Shown: in pieces, positions 28,931-32,355 of the stretch
Numbering within the stretch: position 1 is the first letter of the stretch
How the letters are laid out: each line of letters opens with the position of its first letter
Assembly (NCBI GenBank): GCA_018714625.1
Contig: DVNE01000046.1
Location: 1 to 53,461 of the forward strand
DNA: 53,461 nt
Reading direction: 5' to 3'
Origin: Candidatus Coproplasma excrementigallinarum
Lineage (GTDB): Bacteria > Bacillota > Clostridia > Christensenellales > Borkfalkiaceae
Notes under the pieces: model-generated
The model's input: only the letters and a program-made list of their open reading frames with translations
Database searches by the model: none
Told to the model about the DNA's origin: nothing
Translations under genes and position numbers: made by a program

Positions 28931-29827
28931 ATGGGATTTTTTTCTAAAATAAAGGACGCTTTAAAAAAGACCAAACAGACCCTCGGCGGCGCAATAAAGG
29001 CGCTGTTTACAAGGGGAAAGATAGGCGACGAGTTCTATGACGAGCTTGAAGAAATTCTCATTTCCGCCGATATTTCCGTCACGACGGCGGAGGAGACGGT
29101 GGAGGATTTGCGCGCCGAGGTCAAAAAGGAAAAGCTAAAGGACGAGGAGTATGTTGTAAACCTTTTAAAGGACATTCTCGAGGACACGCTCACCCGTGCT
29201 GAAGTACCTGAAATAGAGTATCCTGCCGTAATAGTTTTAATAGGCGTTAACGGCGTTGGCAAGACCACTACGGTAGGCAAGCTTGCCGACTACTTCTTAA
29301 GGAACAAAAAGAGCGTGACCGTGGCTGCGGCCGATACCTTCCGTGCCGCCGCGGCAGACCAGCTCACCGTCTGGGCAGAGAGGGCGGGCGTGCGCATAGT
29401 AAAGCACGAAGAGGGCAGCGACCCTTCGGCCGTCGTGTTCGACGCAATCTCCTCGGCAAAGGCCAAGGGTACTGACGTATTGCTCGTGGATACGGCGGGC
29501 AGACTGCACGTTAAGGCAAACCTTATGGAGGAGCTGAAAAAGATTTCCCGCGTAATATCCCGCGAATACCCGCAGGCGCACGTATATAAACTGCTCGTTC
29601 TCGACGCGACCACGGGAAACAACGCAATAAACCAGGCGCGCCTTTTCGACGAGGCTGTCGACCTCGACGGCATTGTGCTTACCAAGCTCGATTCCACCGC
29701 AAAGGGCGGATTTGTAATTTCGCTGTGCGGCGAGCTTGAAATTCCCGTCATATTTGTAGGCACGGGCGAAAAGATAGGCGACCTTGAAAAATTCAACCCC
29801 GAAGAATTTATAGATTCTATTCTTTAA
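28931..29827 (+). CDS. ftsY: Signal recognition particle receptor FtsY
   Basis: GTPase that docks SRP-ribosome complexes at the membrane for co-translational insertion. 298 residues, so only the helical N and GTPase G domains are present, with no long acidic A domain. G1 is GVNGVGKTT (about 105-113). DTFRAAAADQL, VDTAGRLHVKANLMEELKK and TKLDSTAKGG are the other conserved blocks. AAAAGGAA precedes the ATG. It is the last gene of the asnS-to-ftsY stretch and is closed by a perfect palindromic terminator. Confidence 0.97.
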   Translation: MGFFSKIKDALKKTKQTLGGAIKALFTRGKIGDEFYDELEEILISADISVTTAEETVEDLRAEVKKEKLKDEEYVVNLLKDILEDTLTRAEVPEIEYPAVIVLIGVNGVGKTTTVGKLADYFLRNKKSVTVAAADTFRAAAADQLTVWAERAGVRIVKHEEGSDPSAVVFDAISSAKAKGTDVLLVDTAGRLHVKANLMEELKKISRVISREYPQAHVYKLLVLDATTGNNAINQARLFDEAVDLDGIVLTKLDSTAKGGFVISLCGELEIPVIFVGTGEKIGDLEKFNPEEFIDSIL

Positions 29828-29840
29828 TCTTTAAAATATA

Positions 29841-29886
29841 AAGCCTGCGGCGCGCAAGAATTCTTGCGCGCCGCAGGCTTTTTTAT
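29841..29886. terminator. 40-bp perfect palindrome terminator after ftsY
   Basis: Arms 29841-29860 and 29861-29880 are perfect reverse complements with no spacer, centred on GAATTC, followed by TTTTATTT. Confidence 0.85.
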
Positions 29887-29989
29887 TTAAAATACTTTAT
29901 AGTTTATATTGTATCAGTTTACATATTTTCCCTTGATTTAGCCGAATAGTGCGGGCAAAATCTGCCCAAAATACTTGCGGAGGGCAGTT

Positions 29990-30586
29990 ATGCAATTTGA
30001 AGATACCAAAACTTATTTAAACCTTGCGCGCAGTTTTGCGGGTGAGGCTCAGGCGGGAATGAGGTACCAGCTTGCGGCAAGGCTTGCCACGCAGCAGGGC
30101 TATGTTACGCTCGCCGATACCATTCGCACGCTTGCAAAAAACGAAACGGTGCACGCGCGCAGATTTTTTGAAGAACTTTCCAAAAGAGGACAAAAACTCG
30201 ACAATATCGATCTGGACGCGGGATACCCCTTCCACGGAGGCAGTCTTGAAGAGTGCCTGCGCTATGCCGCACAGGACGAGCGCGCCGAACACACCAAAAT
30301 ATATCCCGACTTTGCGGCTGAGGCCGAGGCAGAGGGCTTCAGCGATGTAGCCGCGCTGTACAGACTGGTCGCCAATGTGGAAAAGCGTCACGAAATGATT
30401 TTCAATTACCTCTACGAGGCATACAAATCGGGTACGCTGTTTTCCAACGAAAGCCCCATGCTCTATATATGCAGCGAATGCGGTTATATGCACACCGGCA
30501 CAAAGGCGTGGGATGTGTGCCCGCTCTGCAAATCTTCGCAGGGGTATGTTGAATTGCACTTGCCCTTTGAAAAGGAGAGAATATGA
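29990..30586 (+). CDS. Rubrerythrin
   Basis: Non-haem diiron peroxidase that reduces hydrogen peroxide in anaerobes. From the ATG at 29990 it has 198 residues. An upstream in-frame TTG at 29975 is rejected because GGAGG lies between it and the ATG at the right distance. A four-helix ferritin-like domain carries the iron-ligand motifs (GEAQAGMRYQ, KNETVHARRF, DERAEH, EKRHEM). A C-terminal rubredoxin domain has CSECGY and CPLCKS Cys pairs. The stop overlaps the ATG of a 30-codon Cys-rich ORF (ATGA) that has a strong Shine-Dalgarno, making an oxidative-stress micro-operon plausible. Confidence 0.95.
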   Translation: MQFEDTKTYLNLARSFAGEAQAGMRYQLAARLATQQGYVTLADTIRTLAKNETVHARRFFEELSKRGQKLDNIDLDAGYPFHGGSLEECLRYAAQDERAEHTKIYPDFAAEAEAEGFSDVAALYRLVANVEKRHEMIFNYLYEAYKSGTLFSNESPMLYICSECGYMHTGTKAWDVCPLCKSSQGYVELHLPFEKERI

Positions 30587-30675
30587 AGAAAGCTAATGAA
30601 AACCAGTCAAAAAACACAAAGTCCAAAAGCTGCGGCTCTAAGGGCGCAAGCGGCTGTGCAAAAAACTGCAAGTAA
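30583..30675 (+). CDS. 30-residue Lys/Asn-rich peptide with three cysteines, coupled to rubrerythrin
   Basis: Reads MKKANENQSKNTKSKSCGSK and then ten more residues, with cysteines at 17, 25 and 29. AAAGGAGAGAAT lies directly before the ATG, which overlaps the rubrerythrin stop as ATGA. That ribosome-binding context is better than for most genes here and argues that it is translated. The basic, Cys-containing composition suggests metal or thiol chemistry linked to rubrerythrin, but this is inference. A second frame (30596-30769) overlaps it in the +1 phase. A one-base change in the six-A run at 30660-30665 would join the two, so a frameshift or sequence error must be considered. Confidence 0.6.
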   Translation: MKKANENQSKNTKSKSCGSKGASGCAKNCK

Positions 30676-30769
30676 ACGCAGTTTTTACAGTCACGACGAT
30701 CCTTCCGGCAGTTATACGGGCGTACCTTCAGACGGGGGAGTGCCCGTGCAGGACGCAGACGATTTGTAA
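30596..30769 (+). CDS. 57-residue ORF ending in a GSYTG...VQDADDL tail
   Basis: ATG at 30596 opens a frame of 57 codons in the same phase as rubrerythrin, overlapping the 30-residue ORF. Its C-terminal part (DDPSGSYTGVPSDGG, then VPVQDADDL) looks like the tail of short conserved proteins that I associate from memory with Clostridia. This needs checking. The N-terminal part is low-complexity Ala/Gln/Lys and the start lacks its own Shine-Dalgarno. Either it is translated separately by coupling, or its tail belongs to the Cys-rich ORF through a frameshift. Confidence 0.5.
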   Translation: MKTSQKTQSPKAAALRAQAAVQKTASKRSFYSHDDPSGSYTGVPSDGGVPVQDADDL

Positions 30770-30987
30770 GCCTTTGGCATAAGACAAAGTATGTTTACTG
30801 TAAAATTTCGCAAAAGAATTTTTGCGTAAAGCTTTGCGGGTTACCGTAAAGAGAGGTAAATTTTATTTTTCTTTAATAAAAAGGACTTAAGGCTTATTAA
30901 AAAAGTTTTTCTGGTATAACACTTCTTTTTCCGTGGGGAGTACGGGGTAAAGCGTTAATTGCGGCATATATGCAGGCCAATTTCAGG

Positions 30988-31079
30988 TTACGGTTTAAGT
31001 AATGGTGCAATAAAACTTATTTTTTTATCAGTTTAAAAATAAAAAAGCTATTGCACTATCCATTACTTTTTAACCGTAA
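30988..31079. repeat. Long imperfect hairpin between rubrerythrin unit and sdaA
   Basis: TTACGGTTTAAGTAATGG (30988-31005) and TGCAATA (31006-31012) pair with TATTGCA (31049-31055) and CCATTACTT...AACCGTAA (31060-31079), with small bulges and an AT-rich loop of about 36 bases. Part of a 360-base gap (30770-31129) that has no gene. A palindrome-family copy, GCGGCATATATGC, lies at 30961. The element could be a structured RNA or a MITE-like remnant. Confidence 0.5.
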
Positions 31080-31118
31080 GCGGCGGCGCGCAGATTTTCT
31101 GCGCGCCGCCGCTTCTTT
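31079..31118. terminator. Terminator downstream of sdaA
   Basis: 15-bp perfect stem: 31079-31093 with 31099-31113, loop ATTTT. A-rich and T-rich flanks exist on both sides, so it could act on both strands. Confidence 0.75.
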
Positions 31119-31129
31119 ATAAAATAAGG

Positions 31130-32355
31130 TTATTCAAAGTGCAGTTTGCTCACGGGGTAATATTTTGCAAGCCCGCCGGAAGAGGTCTCGCGGTAGCTTT
31201 TAAGCAGGTCGCGCCCCGTGTTGTACATAGTTTTGACTATCAGGTCAAAACTTATCTTGCGCGAATCCGCCAGAAAGTTTGCCAGGCTGAGCGCGTTTAT
31301 CGCCCTCATCGCCGCCACGGCGTTGCGCTCTATGCAGGGTATCTGCACAAGTCCCGCAATGGGGTCGCAGGTCAGTCCCAGGTGGTGCTCCATAGCCACT
31401 TCAGCAGCATATTCTATCTGGCCGAGCCCCATCTCGAACAGCTCGCCTAGCGCCGCTGCCGCCATAGAGCAGGCCGAGCCTATCTCTGCCTGACATCCGC
31501 ACTCCGCGCCGCTTATCGAGGCGTTGGTCTTTATTATGTTGCCTACAATGCCGCCCGTCGCCAGCGCGCGCACTATCTGTTCGTCAGAAAAGCCGCGGGT
31601 GTCCTGCATGTAGTGCAGAACGCTGGGCACTACCCCGCAACTGCCGCAGGTGGGCGCGGTGACTACCATTCCGCCCGCCGCGTTCTGCTCGCTCACGGCA
31701 AATGCGTAGCTGCATACCAGTCTGTTCTCTCTTGTCTGCGCCGACTCGTCTATGTGGCGCTGATTGTAAAGGTGCTGCGCACGCCTCTGCGTTCCAAGGC
31801 AGCCGGGCAGCACGCCCGAAGTTGTCAGCCCCTCGTGTATGGTTGTCTTCATTTGTTCCCATACGGTGTGCAGATAGTTAAAAAGCTCGTCGCCCTCGCA
31901 CATATATGCATACTGCCATAAGCGCATGTTGTGCGCGCTGCAATAGGCCGTATTTCGTCGTAGGTGGAGAGGGGGTAGACGTCGTTGTCTATGCCGCAGG
32001 TTTCGTCGGGCTCGCCCTCTATGCGTATCGTGCCGCCGCCAACGCTGTAAAAGCGGGTGACGGCCAGTTTTTTGTCGCCGCGCAGCGCCGTAATGTCCAG
32101 CGTGTTGGGGTGTACGGGGCAGGGCGTCGTCTTATCGAACAAGACCTCGCAGGGGATGGGCTCAAATGTCTTTTTTAGCACCGCGTCGGTGCAGTGCCCC
32201 TTTCCGGTCAGCGCAAGCGAGCCGTAAAGCGTAACGCTGAACTTGTCGGCCTGGGGATAGCGCGCCTTCATAAGCTCTGCGGCGCGTTCCGGGCCGATGG
32301 TGTGTGAACTTGAAGGCCCGCGGCCTATTTTATATATTTCTTTAAGCGATTGCAT
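31130..32355 (-). pseudogene. sdaA: L-serine dehydratase, single-chain form, broken by a one-base frameshift
   Basis: Iron-sulfur L-serine ammonia-lyase, which converts serine to pyruvate and ammonia. The 5' part (32355 down to about 31950) encodes the beta domain with GPSSSHTIGPERAAEL. The 3' part (about 31947 to 31130) encodes the alpha domain with APTCGSCGVVPS and GAECGCQAEIGSACSMAAAAL, where the cluster cysteines lie. The frames fail to join near 31948. Adding one C to the CC at 31948-31949 restores YDEIR-AYCSAHNMRLWQYA without a break and gives a normal-length protein of about 408 residues. No other damage is visible, so this is a very recent mutation, a phase-variable site or a sequencing/assembly error. 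GAGAGG precedes the ATG. Confidence 0.88.

Follow-up and report, generated by a model that had tools for sequence, protein, structure and literature searches.

Organization of the rubrerythrin locus

The investigated window, a stretch of 53,461 nucleotides from Candidatus Coproplasma excrementigallinarum, belongs to a draft genome of 75.66% completeness in 60 contigs. It contains a succession of ftsY, a terminator-like inverted repeat, a rubrerythrin gene and two short open reading frames, ORF1 and ORF2, whose coordinates are compiled in Table 1. The repeat probably constitutes the upstream boundary of a unit comprising rubrerythrin, ORF1 and the C-terminal region of ORF2, which we refer to as the tail, as distinguished from the head encoded by ORF1. 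The product of the rubrerythrin gene scores above the cut-offs of the Pfam families PF02915 and PF21349 and reaches 178 bits with the NCBIfam model RuberyRbr, which is under the cut-off of 200. Its stop codon (30584-30586) overlaps with the start of ORF1 and a first-pass annotation of this DNA, which had described a Shine-Dalgarno-led, ATGA-coupled frame of 30 Lys/Asn-rich residues with three cysteines following rubrerythrin, proved to be accurate in this respect. A degenerate pattern of the end of the tail is found once in the window, which is more than expected by chance, as 100 shuffles yielded 0.00 occurrences on average. On the minus strand, an L-serine dehydratase (31130-32355) is seemingly split into two ORFs that overlap, 31849-32355 and 31130-31927, with the second corresponding to the C-terminal half of an L-serine dehydratase model composed of one chain.

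Table 1. Features at the rubrerythrin-ORF1-ORF2 locus in window coordinates.
Feature	Position	Strand	Basis or remark
Terminator-like inverted repeat, 19 pairs and T tail	29840..29881	.	between ftsY and rubrerythrin
Rubrerythrin gene, 198 aa, in the frame of the tail	29990..30586	+	TGA stop overlaps ATG of ORF1 (ATGA)
Shine-Dalgarno sequence AAGGAG of ORF1	30572..30577	+	read from sequence
ORF1, Cys/Lys/Asn-rich head of 30 aa, three Cys, end KNCK-stop	30583..30675	+	sequence and relatives
ORF2, 57 aa, +1 frame relative to ORF1	30596..30769	+	sequence
Possible ATG start of ORF2 in the frame of the tail (rival reading)	30596..30598	+	without Shine-Dalgarno tetramer
Possible second start in the frame of the tail, GTG (rival reading)	30656..30658	+	in the window only, among 13 loci of its clade
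A6 run	30660..30665	+	broken in relatives
Candidate +1 slip site AAG_UAA_A	30670..30676	+	Lys codon 30670-30672, stop 30673-30675
Tail, 31 aa and stop, +1 frame	30674..30769	+	pN/pS, invariant columns, profile matches
Conserved core of the tail, DPSGSYTGVPSDGGVPVQDADDL	30698-30766	+	sequence comparison

Conservation of the two-frame arrangement

The arrangement of both frames is a general property of the genus. A search for rubrerythrin in 61 genomes returned matches in 56, paralogues counted, and from these 30 loci were taken, including the window. The two-frame arrangement is located downstream of rubrerythrin in 29 of them, the window among these, with the thirtieth (L029) ending inside the rubrerythrin gene. 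All 29 readable loci share the ATGA junction, a Lys/Asn/Cys-rich ORF1 and a tail in the +1 frame that is open across the stop of ORF1, and an AGGAG sequence upstream of ORF1 is kept in the relatives that were compared. In a subsequent scan, in which the phase was not preselected, the 94 genus loci entered comprised 79 distinct tails, 13 merged duplicates and two unreadable loci (L029 and L137). ORF1 is followed by a tail at +1 in 77 of the 79 distinct loci, 75 of which were read directly in the scan and two (L026 and L028) in the rubrerythrin-adjacent set, whereas the other two are cut by contig ends. Neither a different phase nor a loss of the stop that would generate a single frame was found among the genus loci read. 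The survey of slip sites and start codons described below accepted only phase +1 and resolved 78 of the 79 loci, with L126 being missed by the Shine-Dalgarno rule despite its +1 phase, and 75 of these 78 contain a complete ORF1.

The alignment with relatives, which the first-pass annotation had proposed as a check, shows that both frames are conserved, that they switch at the stop of ORF1 and that there is no uninterrupted frame in the genus. Since 77 of the 79 distinct loci of the genus are split in the same way, the sequence error that had been listed as one option is excluded and, given also the purifying selection on both parts, an error of sequencing or assembly, or a decayed gene, is extremely unlikely, despite the draft state of the window genome.

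The tail is characterized by the motif DPxGSYTG...PVQDADDL, with 13 invariant columns in the 16 chosen rows that were also used to build a profile. Among the genomes searched with this profile, the tail was detected in 80 of 93 in the genus, 339 of 398 in the family and, at E 0.01, 173 of a sample of 297 from the order. The 57-codon frame at +1 ending in GSYTG...VQDADDL, which had been noticed in the first-pass annotation, is thereby corroborated with respect to its tail, whereas its overlap with ORF1 carries no coding signal. Each of the 80 matching genomes of the genus contains a single tail, with one showing two at a looser cut-off. The stretch between the stop of ORF1 and DPxGSYTG varies between clades and in L024 it is lengthened to 25 residues before GSYTG, yet open. 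In the order, the same tail is found in stand-alone relatives on short, often Lys-rich heads. More generally, small proteins ending in DPxGSYTG...QDADDL, many of about 40-60 residues, occur order-wide (for example L038, L046 and L058).

For the head, the tail and the relatives tested, no curated family in Pfam or NCBIfam was matched above cut-off. The comparison with PDB chains returned no solved match (best E 0.63), the search of plasmid records a single weak match, to the tail, in one record, and no report of the gene was found in open-licence papers.

Selection switches frame at the stop of ORF1

The frames under selection were identified from pN/pS values obtained as pairwise counts on codon alignments, which are descriptive, as the pairs are not independent. 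In the region of ORF1, the ratio of 0.34 in its own frame contrasts with 1.06 in the frame of the tail and 0.84 in the third frame, whereas in the region of the tail it is 0.19 in the own frame, 1.68 in the frame of ORF1 and 1.56 in the third frame. The end of ORF1 was examined in three groups of loci that were set by hand from start codons and a tree. In these, the last eight codons of ORF1 show own-frame ratios of 0.31, 0.42 and 0.20, compared to 1.58, 0.82 and 1.00 in the frame of the tail and 0.77, 0.82 and 1.28 in the third frame, the latter two calculated from seven of the eight codons. Values around 1 in the frame of the tail upstream of the stop imply that coding switches frame at the stop itself, and the part of ORF2 that overlaps with ORF1 shows no coding signal by this measure, including in the group of loci with a GTG in this region.

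Start codons in the frame of the tail

The absence of selection on the frame of the tail in the overlap bears on the question of how the tail is translated. Were the tail to form the C-terminal part of a separate, overlapping ORF2, whose translation begins at an ATG or GTG within ORF1 through coupling to ribosomes that are already translating the transcript, the locus would encode two micro-proteins. In the window, the second would comprise either the 57 residues of ORF2 or, when initiated at GTG 30656, 37 residues. This reading, which was among the options of the first-pass annotation, is possible where the frame of the tail contains a start, as is the case in the window. There, none is found at the stop of ORF1, with the possible starts located 17 and 77 nucleotides upstream. 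Among the 75 complete genus loci, 62 contain a start in the frame of the tail, which in 43 is an ATG or GTG located between -41 and +12 relative to the stop and in 19 occurs only farther upstream. A minority of species has no usual start for the tail, as 13 of the 75 loci lack any ATG, GTG or TTG in its frame (11 if a codon beside GSYTG is counted), which argues against internal initiation. The same holds for the scarcity of Shine-Dalgarno tetramers (GGAG, AGGA or GAGG), which precede a start in the frame of the tail in only two of 78 genus loci (L007 and L039), with a looser pattern also flagging L050 and L185, and for the lack of coding constraint on the frame of the tail ahead of the stop, which extends to the group with a GTG.

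The distribution of starts was related to a rubrerythrin tree of 71 genus loci and three outgroups from a different genus (g27), in which L043 is placed among the outgroups. The frequency of start codons per codon in the third frame, compared to the frame of the tail, is 0.031 versus 0.041, 0.010 versus 0.010 and 0.031 versus 0.030. Due to this similarity the number of starts on its own is uninformative and it is their fixed position that is telling. Such positions are found in two clades and favour internal initiation. In the clade of the window, the ATG at codon 5 of ORF1, composed of the end of an AAT codon and the G following it, is conserved in all 13 loci. However, codon 7, which also encodes asparagine, is often AAT in this clade too, hence the sequence at codon 5 need not be selected, and the GTG at 30656 is absent from the other 12 loci. 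In the largest clade, consisting of 37 loci in the tree and two assigned by exclusion, a start in the frame of the tail is present in 38 of 39 loci (the exception being L123), mostly as GTG 26-32 nucleotides upstream of the stop. Where codons -9 and -10 of ORF1 precede a G, 36 end in T and 10 in C, compared to 45 T and 226 C elsewhere. In sequence comparison, the T-ending codon that generates this GTG thus resembles a start codon that has been retained; GGT is, however, favoured at -12 in the same clade too, where no GTG arises, which weakens this argument. Initiation at a GTG 26-29 nucleotides upstream would place about 18 basic residues before GSYTG, resembling the stand-alone relatives. In the largest clade, translation may truly begin at the GTG, with the tail belonging to an independent gene that overlaps ORF1. 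Taken with the prevalence of coupling in sister genera described below, these features make separate initiation the main, albeit less probable, alternative explanation for the window.

In a clade of 20 loci, 12 lack starts. Two members of this mostly start-less clade, L028 and L066, carry an ATG in the frame of the tail four nucleotides after the stop, as a possible return to coupling.

The loci without a usual start could still produce a separate tail if it was started in an unusual manner near the stop of ORF1, either at a non-standard codon or by a restart without one, in which case no joined protein would be made. The variable stretch between stop and DPxGSYTG, which suggests that the tail may tolerate different starting points, and the rule of coupling in sister genera are consistent with such a process. 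Conversely, CTG and ATN codons in the frame of the tail are likewise absent in seven of the 13 loci without start, the phase is constant at +1 and the stretch is open even at the 25 residues found in L024, and we thus consider this mode of initiation improbable.

Sequence and RNA context of the stop

The codon preceding the stop of ORF1 in the 78 resolved genus loci is AAA in 46, AAG in 26, AAT and AGA in two each and AGG and TCC in one each, and the stop is UAA in 76 and UGA in two loci, while the base after the stop is not fixed. AAR is thus found in 72 of 78 loci and missing in six, including two without a start for the tail (L112 with AAT_UGA and L129 with AGA_UAA). Synonymous codon choice close to the stop is biased, as exemplified by the cysteine codon at -2, which is TGC in 67 and TGT in five loci, compared to 104 and 35 in the body of ORF1 (Fisher p 0.0014, uncorrected for relatedness). 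As the conservation of KNCK-stop is largely shared with relatives that need no shift, it is not specific for shifting. We infer that AAG_UAA, the form found in the window, re-pairs poorly in the +1 frame, so that a low efficiency or a shift driven by the A site may apply. Both tRNA-Lys genes (UUU and CUU) were found in the draft genome by ARAGORN, which was run on 19 of 24 tRNA loci and revealed nothing unusual for tRNA-Lys.

In the first-pass annotation, the A6 run in front of the stop had been singled out as the point where a single base could join both frames. The run is present in the window and not conserved in relatives, where the corresponding sequence is AAG AAC TGC (L011) or AAG AAC AGC (L012 and L014). 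Slippage of the RNA polymerase or of the ribosome (+1 or -2) on this A-rich run upstream of the stop could draw on the fact that all 78 genus loci have AAR at codon -4 and a purine after it. Still, the run is interrupted in many of them (AAG AAC, AAG GAC), codon -4 does not encode lysine in four of 23 loci with a +1 phase in the genus g26, and lysine commonly occupies this position in g27 and g29 as well, two genera that do not require a shift, and we regard slippage on the run as very unlikely. A slip at codon -4 (AAR_R), which is found throughout the genus but encodes Lys in only 19 of 23 loci in g26 and is shared with non-shifting genera, was rejected as a candidate. Classical A-rich frameshifts, such as those of dnaX and insertion sequences, proceed in the -1 direction. 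They resemble the locus in that the frame changes close to a stretch rich in A, which in the window contains A_AAA_AAC, and differ from it since the -1 frame of the window does not reach the conserved tail and the run is not conserved; for dnaX, the -1 direction is described in the consulted part of a survey of prokaryotic frame transitions (PMC3711429).

No Shine-Dalgarno-type stimulator was seen near the junction and RNAalifold detected no consensus RNA structure, with energies near zero in three clades and all sequences together (z of -1.21, -1.70 and 0.48 in the clades and -0.60 together). Rfam returned 23 weak matches over positions 29800-31200, none of which reached the gathering score. 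In the window, a hairpin at 30640-30730 (z -1.98) would hold the stop of ORF1 in its loop, and similar hairpins of varying register are found in relatives. Own arms of these hairpins pair better than swapped ones (permutation p of 0.005, 0.0075 and 0.027 in three clades, uncorrected for relatedness), whereas a synonymous randomisation showed weak or no excess (mean z of -0.12, -0.51 and -0.13), with values in a mid-tail control (-1.35, -1.38 and 0.03) being lower in two clades. In light of the weak excess and the lack of a consensus structure, the hairpin was rejected as RNA stimulator.

Arrangement in other genera

The arrangement was further compared in genera other than that of the window, labelled g26, g27, g28, g29, g127-g131, g133-g136 and g138, where the later scans accepted only an ORF1 out of the frame of the tail, such that phase 0 was detectable only in earlier scans. 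The +1 layout is found in 23 of the 31 resolved loci of g26 (33 in total), and in these the stop is always UAA, preceded by AAA in 18 and AAG in five. Internal initiation at a usual codon is not available to 14 of the 23, which lack ATG, GTG and TTG for the tail, although all 14 contain a near-cognate CTG or ATN such as ATT or ATA. Loci without a start are also found in g135 (two of two) and g136 (two of four).

A different organization prevails in g27, g127 and g29, where most loci read provide the tail with a start of its own, at or beside the stop of ORF1, and in g26 loci of phase 2, where this is the case in seven of eight; exceptions include L253 (g127) and L155 (g26). The phases of the tail in g27 comprise 0, +1 and +2, with the tail mostly starting at the stop of ORF1. 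The stop-start junctions in sister genera take the form TAATG, TAAATG, TAACATG, GTGA or NTGCAAGTAA. Judged from these sequences, the mode of expression appears to have changed from stop-start coupling to frameshifting across genera, with the direction of change being a presumption. In L282, a locus from another family, a K/N/C-rich head and the tail reside in a single frame, and its product corresponds to the one that a shift would make in the genus of the window.

The association with rubrerythrin, for which a small partner had been suspected from the window, extends to 73 of 78 genus loci, with three of the other five located near contig ends, and to eight other genera, where rubrerythrin is found upstream in all loci read (15 in g27, four in g28, nine in g29, five in g130, three in g131, one in g133, two in g135 and three in g138). 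A partnership is not general, as rubrerythrin is not located upstream in g26 (0 of 33), g127 (0 of 8), g128 (0 of 2), g129 (0 of 5) and g136 (0 of 4), and in g134 it is found in one of seven loci. With the link absent in several genera, a role of the gene in oxidative or metal stress is only a guess.

Discussion

The features of the locus are in our view accounted for, with moderate confidence, by a single small gene that would be read in two frames via stop-dependent +1 slippage of the ribosome, mostly at AAR_UAA. Of the options considered in the first-pass annotation, programmed frameshifting is thus the best supported, with the site moved from the A6 run to the Lys-stop pair. In this process, ribosomes would initiate at ATG 30583, in coupling to rubrerythrin, and synthesize the Cys/Lys/Asn-rich head. 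For most of them, translation would end with UAA 30673 and the release of the 30-residue peptide, whereas some would slip by +1 with the last Lys codon (AAG in the window, AAR in most relatives) in the P site and the stop in the A site. The latter would read on in the +1 frame and add the conserved acidic tail DPxGSYTG...PVQDADDL, resulting in a fusion of about 60 residues. When read via one four-letter word with the slip placed one codon early, the joined protein contains 61 residues, for which structure prediction showed no fold (mean pLDDT 55.4). Functionally, the head might act as a disordered segment rich in thiols and lysine that bears a recognition peptide at its C-terminus.

This interpretation is based on the constancy of the +1 phase in genus loci with or without starts, as opposed to the phases 0, +1 and +2 found in g27, on the presence of AAR_UAA in 72 of 78 genus loci and 23 of 23 loci in g26, and on frame-specific selection combined with the existence of loci that lack a start for the tail. 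We infer from these features that the shift is ribosomal, that AAR_UAA is its site, that it occurs in the species of the window and that both products are used. The GTG and ATG signals kept in certain clades limit our confidence in frameshifting to this degree and are the reason why separate initiation retains its smaller share for the window.

Programmed +1 shifts in cellular genes of bacteria are known mainly from prfB. The consulted parts of the respective studies present it as the standard prokaryotic +1 case (PMC5009743, PMC12421855), in which the site CUU_UGA_C is combined with an internal Shine-Dalgarno sequence (PMC5009743, PMC3711429). The described gene resembles prfB in its short zero-frame ORF leading to a stop, the location of the functional part in the +1 frame and the proposed shift at the codon preceding the stop. 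It differs by being unrelated, by the use of mostly AAR_UAA, by the lack of a detected Shine-Dalgarno stimulator and by a variable base after the stop. In the genus itself, no CTTTGA was found near the start of prfB in 14 readable loci (L294-L296, L298-L303, L305-L308 and L311), where prfB reads in one frame. This sequence is present near the start of prfB in L297 and L309, which are relatives from the order.

A closer resemblance of the slip motif is found in the ciliate Euplotes, where, according to the consulted part of one study, AAA is by far the commonest codon preceding the stop at +1 sites, extra stimulators were not found and AAA_UAA is proposed to re-pair as AAU (PMC10235951). Both systems share a Lys-stop pair and the +1 direction, and in neither were additional stimulators found. 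Unlike in Euplotes, where such sites are abundant throughout the genome, held to be neutral and embedded in an organism with altered termination, the site described here concerns one small bacterial gene that is kept in the loci read of one genus. Conserved frame transitions in prokaryotes constitute a known class, in which, as stated in the consulted part of a survey, programmed shifts as well as coupling may be at work and are hard to separate (PMC3711429). In our case, the same two ORFs are coupled in most loci of g27, g127 and g29 and in phase-2 loci of g26, whereas the genus of the window and most of g26 show phase +1, usually without a start at the stop.

Collectively, our results raise a broader scenario, to which we subscribe only tentatively, where in a lineage of gut Clostridia AAR_UAA might have evolved from a stop-start pair into a dedicated +1 site in a cellular micro-protein gene, which would yield a Cys-rich peptide and its tailed version in a set ratio, akin to the Lys-stop shift of Euplotes. 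If true, this would provide a second, unrelated and well-conserved +1 case with a different slip motif in a cellular gene of bacteria. Since the relatives include coupled and shifted forms, they would allow tests of the origin of such a site and of the minimal sequence that it requires. Independent of the mode of its translation, the tail defines an order-wide family of small proteins, often encoded beside rubrerythrin, for which there is no curated model in Pfam or NCBIfam.
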